This document shows positions 26,235 to 36,048 of a stretch of DNA of 52,713 nt, one piece after another. Positions within the stretch are counted from its first letter, which is position 1. Every line of letters begins with the position of its first letter. The DNA comes from Chamaesiphon sp. 341R_metabat_111 (GTDB lineage: Bacteria > Cyanobacteriota > Cyanobacteriia > Cyanobacteriales > Chamaesiphonaceae). A program made the translations under genes and the position numbers. The notes under the pieces are model-generated. The model saw only the letters and a program-made list of their open reading frames with translations. It did not search any database and was not told where the DNA came from. The stretch covers positions 1 through 52,713 of the forward strand of contig JANXVE010000020.1 of assembly GCA_025351825.1 (NCBI GenBank), written 5' to 3'.

Positions 26235-26465
26235 AAATTAGTTGGTTAGTGGTTTAGCGATTTAGTGGTTTAGCAAAAAGACATTGGATGACAGGTGGTA
26301 CGAGTTGAAAACAAATTGAATGGATGTTTTATTTCAATGAATACATTAAGCGAAGTAAATAATTGCAAATATTTACTAATTAGACATTGCTTGTGATTTA
26401 GCTAGTGAGCGTTGCTCATTAAATTGCTAAACCACTATTCACTAAACCACTAAACCACTAAATCC
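26235..26465. repeat. Spacer with octamer repeats on both sides
   Basis: GTGGTTTA-type octamers occur at about 26240-26275, and their complement CTAAACCA/CACTAAAC at about 26425-26462, in the divergent spacer between selO and crr7. The two sets could base-pair across about 150 bp. Confidence 0.55.
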
Positions 26466-27335: not shown

Positions 27336-27436
27336 GTAGGGGGTAGGGGGATGGGGAGATAGAGGGGTGTGGGGAGTGTGGGGGGATTGGAACTATCGAT
27401 CGCTAAACCACTATCCACTAAACCACTAAACCACCA
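27336..27436. repeat. G-rich repeat followed by CACTAAAC octamers
   Basis: GTAGGGGG/GTGTGGGG-type G-rich units (27336-27391) are followed by CACTAAAC/CCACTATC octamers (27404-27436) ahead of the large ankyrin gene. The two repeat families also adjoin at 3808-3940. Confidence 0.65.
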
Positions 27437-27530
27437 TTAGCAATTCTGACCAATAATTTGGGAACCATAGATACAGAGGCAGTGCATTGGGCACATTACT
27501 TGTCACCCATAAGATTTGGACACAGCAACC

Positions 27531-30266
27531 ATGAGTGTAGATCCCCAAACTCAGAACTTATTTGATGCGATTTTGGCAGTGAATTACGATCGAGTCAAAC
27601 TCATTGTCGATGCAGGGGTAGGAATCAATCACCCGAACGATCGTGGGCAAACTCCATTGGTGGTAGCTTGTCAGCGGGGTAATTTGGAGATCGTCGATCT
27701 GCTCATGGCTGCTGGTGCTCAGATGCAGGTATCTTTAGATCCAGTCGTGTCGTCGGCGGAAGTTACCTACGCTTTCGATCTCGATGAAATTTTTGCAGCT
27801 AATGAAGTTTCCGATCGTTTAATCGGTGGTGACAACTCCAAAATATTTGTAGATAGCGAAATTACGATGACTTCGCTGAATAATCCAGCCCAAAAGGTTG
27901 AATTTCAGCCGAGCGAAACTTATGCATTCGATCTGAGTCGCGATCTAGACAGGCTTACTGCTGAGAATCAAGAGGAGCCAGATTGCTTGTCAGTGCCGAT
28001 GGGCGAATGGGAGGCAAATGAAACCTATGTGATGGACAATTTTAATCTGCCGATCCCCGATCCTGACGAAGCTGGTGAAAATTTTGCACAGGAGGGCTTT
28101 CTGGTAGATCTGATTCAGCAGCAGGATTCGATCGAAATCGATTCAGCGATTGATGAAGATGGGACTGCCATGAGTGATGACTGGGATGAAGGGGCGACAT
28201 ACGCGATCGATCTTGACGATCTCCATCTCGCCGAACTAATGGGTGGAGCAGCTACAGCACCAATAGCTCTGGAAGTAGTTGCTCCAGAGATCGATGAAGA
28301 TGGGACTGCCATGAGTGATGACTGGGCAGAAGGGGAGACATATGCGATCGATCTTGACGATCTCCATCTTGCCGAACTAATAGGTGGAATTAAGGAATCT
28401 GCAAAATTTGTAGAAGTAATTGCGCCAGAAATCACTGAAATTAGTAGTGCCTCAATCGATACCCATGCCGAAAATGAAACCTATGCGATCGATCTAGGCG
28501 ATCTCGATCTGTCCAAATTAATCGATGGTATTGATGATAATTTTGAAGGTGGCGACATCTCTGCGCCATTGTCAGAGTATATTCTCACAGACATTGATTC
28601 TAGTTTATTTCCAGTAATTGCTGGTGAAGATGAGCCAGACTATACGATCGACGACGATCCGACAGATATTTTTGGACAGCGTGAGTCCAGCTCTGACGCA
28701 CCGACTCCGACATATGACGAAAATGCGACAAACACCTCGCTGATGGCGGCGGTAATTGATGGCGATCTGGATTTGGTGAAACAATCGATCGAAGCTGGAG
28801 CCAGTCTCGATCGCTATGATTGGAATCTCAGCTACGCGCCACTGGGGATGGCAATCGATCGAGGACATGCCGATCTTGTCGAGTGTCTACTAAAAGCCGG
28901 AGCCAATCCCCACTGTGGCAGCACATCCACCACCGCGCTGGGTTTAGCCGCTGAAAACGGTGAAGCCGAAATTATGCAGCTATTGCTGGCACGCCGAGTT
29001 GATGTCAATACACCGATTGCCCCAGACGGCTGGACAGCCTTACTCGCTGCCATTCAAAATGGACATCGATCTGTCGTCCAATTGTTGGTAGCTGCGGGCG
29101 CGAATGTCAATGTCTGGAGCCGTGGTGAGACACCAATCATCCTCGCTGCCAAATCTGAAGAGCGGGATATCTACAACTATCTCTATCCGATCGTCAATAC
29201 AGCCATTCGCCTATGTGCCGATCGAGATGGCGAACATCTGCTCCAAGCCACCCACAAACGCCGGATTCGGCTCCAAAATCGTCCGATTGAGAAATTCATC
29301 GAAATGGCAACAGAGGGCAATATTGCCGAGATAAATCGCGCAATTGAGGTCGGGATTGAAATCGACGAACTTGGTGCCAAAGGGCATACAGCACTGATGG
29401 TAGCGGCATATTATGGTCATCGATCGGTTGTCAATGCTTTACTCGCTGCTGGTGCAGATCCCAATCTTCTCAGCGATGACAATGGTTTGGGGGCAGGAAT
29501 GACTGCGCTAATGTTGGCAGCAGGCAGTTTCTTTGCCAGCAATCGTCAACAGATCGCCAAATTACTCATTGCTGGTGGTGCAGATGTCAATCAGCGTGGT
29601 GTCGGCGGCAAAACAGCAATTTTCTATGCCGCACTAGCTGGCTCTGGCTACCAAGATTGTGTTGAAATACTGATCGCTGCTGGTGCCGATCTCGACATCC
29701 ATAACGATCGTGGGCATACCGTTTTGACATCAGTAGCTACCGCTGAAAATTACTCGATGCTAAATCTGCTGATGCAAGCAGGTGCCTCAACCGATGGATT
29801 GGCTTCGATTCAACTGATCCAAGCAGCAGCAGCAGGGAATATGAACCGAGTTCGAGCATTATTAACTGCCAACGTCAATCTCGATCTCGATCGAGGTGCC
29901 GCTATTGGCAATGCCGCAGCCGCCGGACATACTCAGATTGTCGAGCTACTAATCCAAGCAGGCGCGAATGTCAATCTCACCGATAAGCTGGGATTCTCTC
30001 CGATCGCTAGTGCTGCCTACTCCGGCTATAGTGAAATAGTTAATTTACTAATTGAAGCAGGCGCAGACATTCAAGCCCCCGCTGGTGAGTCGCAAAGTTA
30101 TTCTGCTCTAGAATACGCCCAAATGGGACTATATCAATTTGATGCTCGCTCACTCACCAGTGCAGCACAGAAGGAAGCATCTAGCCGATCTGATCTAACC
30201 CAACCAGCAGATCTTCAACACGATCGAATCATTCGCAAACTTGAGCAATTAGTGAGTCGAGGCTAG
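27531..30266 (+). CDS. Large ankyrin-repeat protein with internal acidic TYAxDL repeats
   Basis: About 911 residues from the ATG at 27531; a TTG at 27516 would add five. Residue numbers here count from the TTG. One or two ankyrin repeats open the protein (RGQTPLVVACQRGNLEIVDL). Residues 80-400 are an acidic, ankyrin-free insert in which the motif (E/A)TYA(I/F)DL recurs at about residues 84, 135, 228, 275 and 322, with a variant at 170. The units at 228, 275 and 322 are exactly 47 residues apart. Ankyrin repeats resume at about 405 and run in two blocks to about 860. No signal peptide, membrane span or enzyme motif is seen. It is probably a cytoplasmic scaffold. It stands alone between repeat-rich spacers. 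Confidence 0.82.
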   Translation: MSVDPQTQNLFDAILAVNYDRVKLIVDAGVGINHPNDRGQTPLVVACQRGNLEIVDLLMAAGAQMQVSLDPVVSSAEVTYAFDLDEIFAANEVSDRLIGGDNSKIFVDSEITMTSLNNPAQKVEFQPSETYAFDLSRDLDRLTAENQEEPDCLSVPMGEWEANETYVMDNFNLPIPDPDEAGENFAQEGFLVDLIQQQDSIEIDSAIDEDGTAMSDDWDEGATYAIDLDDLHLAELMGGAATAPIALEVVAPEIDEDGTAMSDDWAEGETYAIDLDDLHLAELIGGIKESAKFVEVIAPEITEISSASIDTHAENETYAIDLGDLDLSKLIDGIDDNFEGGDISAPLSEYILTDIDSSLFPVIAGEDEPDYTIDDDPTDIFGQRESSSDAPTPTYDENATNTSLMAAVIDGDLDLVKQSIEAGASLDRYDWNLSYAPLGMAIDRGHADLVECLLKAGANPHCGSTSTTALGLAAENGEAEIMQLLLARRVDVNTPIAPDGWTALLAAIQNGHRSVVQLLVAAGANVNVWSRGETPIILAAKSEERDIYNYLYPIVNTAIRLCADRDGEHLLQATHKRRIRLQNRPIEKFIEMATEGNIAEINRAIEVGIEIDELGAKGHTALMVAAYYGHRSVVNALLAAGADPNLLSDDNGLGAGMTALMLAAGSFFASNRQQIAKLLIAGGADVNQRGVGGKTAIFYAALAGSGYQDCVEILIAAGADLDIHNDRGHTVLTSVATAENYSMLNLLMQAGASTDGLASIQLIQAAAAGNMNRVRALLTANVNLDLDRGAAIGNAAAAGHTQIVELLIQAGANVNLTDKLGFSPIASAAYSGYSEIVNLLIEAGADIQAPAGESQSYSALEYAQMGLYQFDARSLTSAAQKEASSRSDLTQPADLQHDRIIRKLEQLVSRG

Positions 30267-33333: not shown

Positions 33334-36048
33334 TCAACTATCCACAACCTGGTTAAATAATTCGTGACTGCGATCGATAATTTCGCCATTAAAAGTTTTG
33401 ACAACGTGCTCTGTTGCTGCTTGAAGAATGGGATCGAGATCTGGTTCTTCTAGCTCTATTTCTGGCGTATGTTCTGCACGCTCTACATCGATCGATTCTG
33501 GTGGTTCGGCGAAATCTAGTGATGGATCTGATTCAAATAAATCGACTGGGGCTAATGGTTCTGGCTGCGCTACTACAGGTACTTGCGGCGGTGTGACTAT
33601 TGGTGCTGGCGGCTTAATTAGTTCGGGTTCTGGCGGCGTAATTATTGGCTCTAGCGGCTTAACTAGTTCGGGTTCTGGCGACGTAATTATTGGCTCTGGA
33701 ATTACTACTGGGATTGCGACGGGAGCGGCTACAGGTGGCTCTGGTGGTTTTGCTGAAATTGTAAAACTACTCGGCTGGGCTTGAATTTTGCCCATCACAT
33801 CTAGTTTCACTGAAATCGATCGACCAAACATAGTACTAAACACTTTACTCAGTTCTGGTACCTTGCCACTCGCGATCGACTGCATCGTACTTGATTTCAT
33901 CGCCACAATTGCTTGCGTTTCTGAAACTACGACCAACTTGCCAAAGGGTTTGAATAAGTCTCTACTAGCGGGTAGAAGCTGCTGTAAGACCTGTTCCCAG
34001 GTTTGAACGAGGTCAACAGTGCCGATTGGTGCTGGGGCTACTATGGGGGCAACTGGAGCAACTGGTGTAGGTATGGCAACTGGAGCAACTGCCATACTCG
34101 GCGGTTGCATTGCTGGCGGCTGGGAAACTTGGGGGCTAATCGATGGTGATGGTGGGGGCGTAATAGCGACGGGAGCTGGTGACTGCTGGGTGCTGACTGT
34201 CAGTAGCCCCAAGATGGCAATCTCCAACCACAGTTGGGGTTGAGTCGTATGCTTGAGCTGGATTTCACTATCTTTGAGATATTTTTGACCATTGAGAATC
34301 CAGTTCAGCTCCCATGTTTTGGCAATATTCACCAATTCTGTCCAAGTCTCACTGGTGAGCGCGACTAGATCTGGACGCTTGGGGGCAGTCTTGGCAATTA
34401 GCAGATCGCGATAGCAACCCGCGAGATTTTGGAGCACAGTTAGGGGTTCTTTGCCCCGTTCGAGAATAGTGCGAGTCAGATCGAGTAGACTTTCAGGGTC
34501 GGCTTTAGCGATCGAATGTAATAGATCCAATAAATCTTGTTCGGGTACCGATCCGATCGCATCGTACACTCGATCGGGTGTAATCTCGCCATCGAGCAAA
34601 CTCAACCTGTCGAGCAAGCTCTCAGCATCGCGCAAGCCACCTTGGGCAATTTGGGCAATTAATTTTACTGATGGCGGATCGATTGAGATCTCTTCGATTC
34701 CGGCAATATAAGTCAAATGTTTGACCATCGCATCCACCGGAATCCGCCGATAATCAAATCGCTGACAACGGGAAATAATCGTCGGTAATACCCGTTGTGG
34801 ATCGGTAGTTGCGAGGATAAATACCACCCGATCCGGCGGCTCCTCCAGCGTCTTCAGCAGCGAATTGAATGCCGACGTAGTGAGCATGTGACAATTGTGA
34901 ACCAATAATCCATTAGCCACAAAATTGTGATTATCCTCAACCTCAAGATCGTAGACTCGTTCAACTCCAGCGCGGTTGACAGATTTTACCGTCTCCAAAC
35001 TTGTATGCCATTGATGGGATGGAATAAATTCGTAAGTCTTCCAACCACTGGCGACTTGTATTGGCGTTAAAGCCGATGTAATAGTATGGGGGCTTTTGTT
35101 TGTCTCTTTGGTAGGACTTAATATTTGCTGCGTAGCCGAGTGCCGCAAGCCAATCAGCGATAAGTTGGTTTTCTGCCAAGGAATAGCCTTGCGTGTGGAG
35201 ATGGATGCTAGGGCTTCCTTGCTCCCAGATCCCATGTCCTTTGACGTAAAGGTGTTTTTTCCAGTAAGACTGGATGCTGTGCAGGGTACAGCCAGATTGT
35301 AGATATGTGGGAATAGGTAATTTTGACCCGCAACCACAGGCACAGATGGGTCTAAGTTCTTCTGCTTGTTGTTGGACTGAAAGATTGGTGACAGGATTTT
35401 CATCTCTGGTTTCAGTGATTGAGCCTCGATCCATCCGCGATCCGTCCTAATTAAATGATTTCCAGTGCAGCTAATTTCTCGCTCAGTGGTTTTAATTGTC
35501 AAAGTTGACTTCTCGCCACGTTCGACCCATCTGAGTACCTGTTTCCATTCCCAGGTATCATGATTATCGTTATAGCTTAAGACCTTTTGACCAACTAATG
35601 TTCGATCGTCAATTCGCATCCAACCGTTGCTGGTCAAAACCAGACTATCACCAGTCAAACATTCATCGATCGTGTAAACCTTATAGCGACACTGTACGGG
35701 GGCATATTGAGCGCGTTCGATGATCTCACGGATATTATCGACACCTGTATTACTGGCAGCATCGATTTCGATAATATCTAGCGCAGCACCAAGCGCGATC
35801 GAACTACATACCTCACAAATCCCACAAGGTTGCGCTGTAGGTACCTGACTCGCCATACAATTAAGGGACTTCGCTAGAATTCGCGCACTAGAAGTCTTGC
35901 CCGTACCGCGTGGTCCCGTAAACAGGTACGCGGGGGCAATCTTCTGAAGTCGGAGTGCATTAGTCAAGGTAGTAGAAATCGCCTCTTGCCCGACCAGATC
36001 CGCGAAAGTTTGTGGTCTATATTTATGATGTAGAGGTATATGTGCCAT
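33334..36048 (-). CDS. dnaX: DNA polymerase III subunit gamma/tau with intein
   Basis: The clamp-loader ATPase of the replisome, 904 residues as translated and about 648 after intein removal. Residues 1-129 include Walker A GPRGTGKTS (45-53) and the four-cysteine zinc module Cys64/75/78/81. An intein occupies residues 130-385, splitting the Walker B region between TIDE and CHML. Downstream are the sensor 1 region (LLKTLEEPPDRVVFILATTD), the helical domains and a Pro-rich tail with PEPELVKPLEPII-type repeats. Since the intein interrupts the ATPase site, DnaX works only after splicing. The Pro-rich tail resembles cyanobacterial tau-type linkers. Confidence 0.95.
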   Translation of the reverse strand: MAHIPLHHKYRPQTFADLVGQEAISTTLTNALRLQKIAPAYLFTGPRGTGKTSSARILAKSLNCMASQVPTAQPCGICEVCSSIALGAALDIIEIDAASNTGVDNIREIIERAQYAPVQCRYKVYTIDECLTGDSLVLTSNGWMRIDDRTLVGQKVLSYNDNHDTWEWKQVLRWVERGEKSTLTIKTTEREISCTGNHLIRTDRGWIEAQSLKPEMKILSPIFQSNNKQKNLDPSVPVVAGQNYLFPHIYNLAVPCTASSLTGKNTFTSKDMGSGSKEALASISTRKAIPWQKTNLSLIGLRHSATQQILSPTKETNKSPHTITSALTPIQVASGWKTYEFIPSHQWHTSLETVKSVNRAGVERVYDLEVEDNHNFVANGLLVHNCHMLTTSAFNSLLKTLEEPPDRVVFILATTDPQRVLPTIISRCQRFDYRRIPVDAMVKHLTYIAGIEEISIDPPSVKLIAQIAQGGLRDAESLLDRLSLLDGEITPDRVYDAIGSVPEQDLLDLLHSIAKADPESLLDLTRTILERGKEPLTVLQNLAGCYRDLLIAKTAPKRPDLVALTSETWTELVNIAKTWELNWILNGQKYLKDSEIQLKHTTQPQLWLEIAILGLLTVSTQQSPAPVAITPPPSPSISPQVSQPPAMQPPSMAVAPVAIPTPVAPVAPIVAPAPIGTVDLVQTWEQVLQQLLPASRDLFKPFGKLVVVSETQAIVAMKSSTMQSIASGKVPELSKVFSTMFGRSISVKLDVMGKIQAQPSSFTISAKPPEPPVAAPVAIPVVIPEPIITSPEPELVKPLEPIITPPEPELIKPPAPIVTPPQVPVVAQPEPLAPVDLFESDPSLDFAEPPESIDVERAEHTPEIELEEPDLDPILQAATEHVVKTFNGEIIDRSHELFNQVVDS
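34894..35661 (-). mobile_element. DnaX intein (256 aa), splicing blocks intact
   Basis: Block A starts with Cys (CLTGDSLVLTSNGWM). Block B contains the T-x-x-H motif (CTGNHLIRT). Block F is RVYDLEVEDNHNFVANG. Block G ends LLVHN, with the penultimate His and terminal Asn needed for cyclisation. The next residue is Cys (CHML), the +1 nucleophile, so all splicing residues are present. Residues about 215-335 in this frame are Ser/Thr-rich and resemble no intein or endonuclease domain. In the shifted frame the same DNA encodes an endonuclease-like segment (34961-35434). Confidence 0.92.
34961..35434 (-). pseudogene. Out-of-frame LAGLIDADG-type homing endonuclease segment inside the intein
   Basis: The shifted frame is open for 157 codons from an ATG. 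Its second half reads like the C-terminal part of LAGLIDADG_2-type homing endonucleases: HLHTQGYSLAENQLIADWL, then PYYYIGFNANTSRQWLEDL, then IPSMAYKF. The first half has a CACGCG...YVKGHG zinc-knuckle-like segment often seen ahead of such domains. The expected D-D-G catalytic segment before LHTQGYS is not there (KGHG instead), so the LAGLIDADG part with the catalytic aspartates appears deleted. I infer a decayed endonuclease moved out of frame by two compensating indels. A functional overlapping gene is less likely. Confidence 0.7.

Follow-up and report, generated by a model that had tools for sequence, protein, structure and literature searches.

A conserved short-motif array in the acidic linker of an ankyrin repeat protein of Chamaesiphon

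Eukaryotes offer well-known cases of short-motif arrays in disordered linkers. Repeated binding motifs also occur in the disordered linkers EPYC1 and CsLinker of pyrenoids and CsoS2 of alpha-carboxysomes. These three proteins resemble the locus described here by analogy, in that short stickers are repeated along a disordered chain, and no relationship between the motifs is claimed. The present array differs from them in lying between two ankyrin regions and in being strongly acidic, and nothing observed suggests that the ankyrin linker binds Rubisco. Flexible linkers that repeat a short motif are a known kind; the motif itself and its confinement to one genus are new. Searches of the open-access literature, outside which most subscription papers lie, found no report on this protein or motif and no case of a short-motif array in a cyanobacterial ankyrin protein.

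The ankyrin protein and the motif copies of its linker

The window (the whole 52,713-nucleotide stretch of Chamaesiphon DNA that was analyzed) contains an open reading frame at 27516-30266 of the forward strand that encodes an ankyrin protein. The ATG at 27531 is likely the start, because the sequence MSVDP is common to the orthologues, and the features of the resulting protein are collected in Table 1. Both regions flanking the linker match the Pfam families Ank_2 (PF12796) and Ank (PF00023). The whole-protein scores of 218.7 and 191.2 bits lie far above the curated cut-offs of 27.3 and 21.1 bits, so that tandem ankyrin repeats are present above the gathering score, whereas no Pfam family matched the linker with its motifs above cut-off. 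The second ankyrin region, too, is acidic.

Table 1. Features of the ankyrin gene and its downstream flank in the window
Feature	Position	Strand	Remarks
Ankyrin protein gene, 911 aa from the likely ATG start	27531..30266	+	ORF opens at TTG 27516
N-terminal ankyrin block, residues 1-66	27531..27728	+	homology; AlphaFold pLDDT mostly 71-84
Acidic linker, residues 67-394	27729..28712	+	net charge -75; pLDDT <50
Motif M1 AEVTYAFDLDEIF	27756..27794	+	in 8/8 full-length orthologues
Motif M2 PSETYAFDLSRDLDRL	27909..27956	+	in 8/8 full-length orthologues
Motif M3 WEANETYVMDNF	28008..28043	+	in 8/8 full-length orthologues; pattern match at 28023
141-bp tandem repeat underlying the 47-residue period	28144..28433	+	TRF; copy comparison
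Motif M4a WDEGATYAIDLDDL	28182..28223	+	M4 in 8/8; three copies only in window, L002, L003
Motif M4b WAEGETYAIDLDDL	28323..28364	+	
Motif M4c AENETYAIDLGDLDL	28467..28511	+	
Degenerate acidic place M5 EDEPDYTIDDDPTDIFG	28626..28676	+	conserved alignment columns
C-terminal ankyrin region, residues 395-911	28713..30263	+	slightly basic helical stretch near 555-594
Cobalamin riboswitch RF00174	30328-30488	+	34.3 bits vs 31.5 gathering score; between ankyrin gene and cbiM

The first-pass annotation had located TYA(F/I)DL at five places in the linker, and all five were recovered, with Thr at ORF residues 84, 135, 228, 275, and 322 and the last three copies exactly 47 residues apart. A sixth copy, ETYVMDN (M3, Thr codon at 28023), was absent from its list. 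The window thus holds six copies, and four to six are found across the eight full-length orthologues, with the consensus (W/F)xxxETY(A/V)(F/I/M)DL. Among 38 copies, position -5 is occupied by Trp in 19 and by Phe in 8, position -1 by Glu in 29, and position +5 by Leu in 29; these three positions lie outside the search expression.

The DNA pattern for TYA[FILM]DL, ACNTAYGCNWTNGAYYT, matched five times in the window versus never in 100 shuffles, and five times across the entire 4.06 Mb genome, every match falling in the ankyrin gene. Such a motif was contained in 0.03% of 200,000 shuffled linkers, never more than once. With a looser pattern, 26 genome matches were obtained versus 20 for the backward control, and the sole cluster consisted of the six in the linker. 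The M4 copies read GCGATCGATCT, resembling the HIP1 octamer, and M1 and M2 use other codons. HIP1 was rejected as the cause of the motif: none of the four occurrences of the octamer (GCGATCGC) in the window falls within the linker.

Conservation and selection within Chamaesiphon

The ankyrin gene was present in all nine genomes of the genus. In eight of them it spans the whole linker. In G007, the ninth, it is split between two contigs (L006 and L049), one of which shows M1, M2, and M3 and the other M4; this genome was excluded from the counts on eight. Contigs L031-L035 were left out because, from their equal lengths, they appear identical to L002, L003, L008, L007, and L006. M1, M2, M3, and M4 were found in every full-length orthologue (32/32 sites). 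Each of these sites retained Thr and had a hydrophobic +3 residue, and Tyr gave way to Cys once, in M1 of L004; because Thr and the hydrophobic +3 are part of the search expression, which also permits Cys for Tyr, it is the recovery of every site that counts. In the five more distant orthologues M1-M4 were still kept, although the linkers are merely 41-49% identical to that of the window. Absence of the motif from all homologues, as expected of a private expansion, was therefore not what was seen within the genus, where all nine genomes carry it. The motif pattern had 29 matches in the genus, five of them outside the orthologues: three without an open frame of at least 80 aa containing the motif, and two reading TYAFDF or TYAIDF in unrelated frames. 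Ahead of M1, the linkers of L005, L007, L008, and L009 are about 80-100 residues longer and include conserved FENL.ELI and WQD stretches; this extension is missing in the window, L002, L003, and L004.

Constraint is stronger on the motif blocks than on the intervening residues. With blocks that had been drawn after the alignment had been viewed, dN/dS was 0.04-0.11 in the blocks and 0.28-0.32 between motifs for four of six pairs. Individual values for motif blocks, inter-motif residues, and second ankyrin region were 0.04, 0.29, and 0.08 for window/L002; 0.04, 0.32, and 0.08 for window/L003; 0.06, 0.30, and 0.06 for L008/L009; and 0.11, 0.28, and 0.07 for L005/L008. The motif value was saturated for window/L004. 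For L002/L003 it was 0.35, from few changes, and not lower than the inter-motif value of 0.28 (second ankyrin region 0.07), which counts against the docking function favored below. Invariant columns made up 49% in the motif and 9% in the inter-motif part. On the five hexamers listed in the first-pass annotation alone, the effect was smaller, with a circular-shift P of 0.0034, or 0.03-0.045 with flanks, from just 327 distinct offsets; random placement of the five hexamers gave P values of 0.037-0.088. These results bear on the proposal that the array is a private low-complexity expansion devoid of function. Only three genomes have additional M4 copies and the 47-residue period, and the linker type was not found beyond the genus, as such an accident would predict, but four sites persist in all orthologues and the motif-block dN/dS contradicts it, making it extremely improbable.

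The 47-residue regularity had been regarded as a feature of the proposed docking site. A single M4 is present in five of the eight full-length orthologues, and the three genomes with three copies show M4 spacings of 47/47 (window), 46/47 (L002), and 46/55 (L003); a functional 47-residue period was rejected on these grounds. The first 93 bases of window M4 copy 2 match window copy 1 at 85/93 positions, and copy 2 of L002 and L003 at 58/93 and 60/93. For the last 48 bases, divergence is too high for an assignment (24-29/48 with all six compared). Comparison of the copies points to exchange between them once the lineage of the window had separated from L002 and L003. The period is therefore the size of the unit that was copied in tandem in the clade of the window, a by-product of duplication rather than a designed spacing.

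A steadier spacing was seen upstream: M1-M2 measures 45-52 and M2-M3 35 in 8/8 orthologues, and M3-M4 varies from 40 to 89. Nearly fixed M1-M2-M3 spacing is needless for independent sites and counts against the docking reading. It leaves room for M1-M3 forming a small folded unit, with a flexible string confined to the M4 region, and further conserved columns do lie between these motifs. An AlphaFold model of residues 1-180 placed a strand on M1, but it is too poor for use (mean pLDDT 48, other four models 28-36), and the linker has neither a PDB relative nor a Pfam match above cut-off. PDB sequences included none resembling the linker or motif (best E 0.13) and none for the M4b peptide. We consider such a unit very unlikely.

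Relatives beyond the genus and predicted disorder

A linker profile search of 291 genomes of the order returned the nine genus genomes plus ten others at E values of 0.06-0.9, with no convincing match among the 282 genomes outside the genus. Five of the ten weak matches were opened, and their longest frames were not ankyrin proteins. In a sample of 388 genomes of the class, a set overlapping that of the order, two other genomes were matched at E values of 0.02 (G437) and 0.08. TYxxD[LIVM] was not found in frames of at least 120 aa at 21 loci outside the genus (L010-L030), except for a stray TYLTDI in L028. A viral scan detected no relative, nor did a plasmid search, in which one match had an E value of 0.03 and 27% identity. 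Outside the genus, the motif was absent from what was examined.

Two homologues from other genera, L011 and L012, were compared by eye. They share the short N-terminal ankyrin block, the acidic linker, and the long ankyrin region, as well as a similar charged helical insert in the latter. Their linkers differ in being shorter, in lacking TYxxD[LIVM], and in having a common stretch of their own, LGE.I..A.EDAP.EAK.FY.G....VDAFS. Since both show the ankyrin-acidic linker-ankyrin architecture, this layout probably arose before the motif array, and since they possess a different conserved stretch, linkers of this ankyrin family may carry lineage-specific motifs.

The linker is predicted to be disordered. 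In charge-hydropathy analysis it fell on the disordered side in 8/8 orthologues, and the second ankyrin region fell on the folded side. The full-length AlphaFold model, built from a six-row alignment, had a mean pLDDT of 50 and a pTM of 0.28, with residues 66-398 below 50, the ankyrin regions mostly at 55-85, and stretches of 558-706 also below 50; with only six sequences aligned, low pLDDT lends disorder weak support. Short helices start directly after TYAFD at M1 (84-97) and M2 (136-148), and shorter ones lie at or near M4a-c.

Short constrained blocks in a drifting acidic background, their repetition, and the ankyrin neighbors favor a multivalent docking linker. We see roughly even chances of a scaffold or adaptor protein with a disordered, acidic, multivalent putative docking linker between its ankyrin regions. 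The two ankyrin regions would bind folded partners, and the long acidic linker would carry four ancestral motif copies, six in this species, each trailed by a short helix-prone, acidic-hydrophobic tail. Every copy would be a docking site for one and the same partner surface, so that the scaffold could gather several partner molecules or bind one by avidity. Docking, equivalence of the copies, and multivalency are what we infer here. A docking site as originally proposed agrees well with a short motif that has been conserved inside a variable acidic linker, predicted to be disordered and flanked by ankyrin blocks; the 47-residue regularity was given up as part of that proposal.

The motifs might instead fold onto the grooves of the protein's own ankyrin repeats, keeping the protein in a closed form that opens when a partner displaces them. 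They sit between two ankyrin regions, within the genus they occur with this ankyrin protein, and TYA[FILM]DL is found in no other gene of the genome. The full-length model, however, offers no confident placement of the linker, and the net charge of -20 of the second ankyrin region is unfavorable for an acidic linker; such intramolecular docking appears quite unlikely.

A phospho-switch was also considered, in which a Ser/Thr kinase would modify each motif Thr and FHA-domain proteins would dock on pThr in a pTxx(I/F/M) context. It is possible because no residue is better kept than Thr, the +3 residue is hydrophobic, and the own genome has nine FHA matches above cut-off. FHA domains accepting pTXXL and pTXXD peptides are the subject, by its title, of a paper cited in PMC3146460. 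Against this, most sites keep Tyr and Asp no less strictly than Thr, although recognition by a pThr reader would not by itself call for that, and the presence of FHA domains says little because a cyanobacterial control genome has them too. We regard this switch as distinctly unlikely.

The docking linker could further be part of a genus-specific module, comprising the new motif, a dedicated reader, and a valency tuned by M4 tandem duplication, possibly with condensate formation or phospho-controlled assembly; this extension is rather unlikely. A partner of the motif should be accessible to a simple peptide pulldown, a feasible search because the motif is sharp, occurs in a single gene of the genome, and shows purifying selection that can be measured. 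The change in M4 copy number between close species provides a natural test of a valency effect.

Neighboring genes

Upstream, on the opposite strand, the ankyrin gene is accompanied by a DUF2854 gene, SelO, and an SDR gene, and downstream by cbiMNQO and dnaX. Judged from the first residues of each frame, the same neighbors occur in the two further genomes opened, G004 and G006, so that the ankyrin gene adjoins cbiMNQO in all three genomes looked at. Because a cobalamin riboswitch sits between the ankyrin gene and cbiM in the window, cobalt uptake (cbiMNQO) is probably under its own control, separate from the ankyrin gene. In G006, a 216-aa opposite-strand frame lies between them. A role of the ankyrin gene in the cbiMNQO operon was set aside on account of these two features.

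Three minor observations concern the surroundings. The dnaX gene (33334-36048, reverse strand) carries an intein (PF14890) at residues 152-385, and 24- and 45-bp tandem repeats lie inside its reading frame at 33587-33697. Two arrays of the octamer CTAAACCA, at 26427-26462 and 27403-27434, flank the DUF2854 gene.
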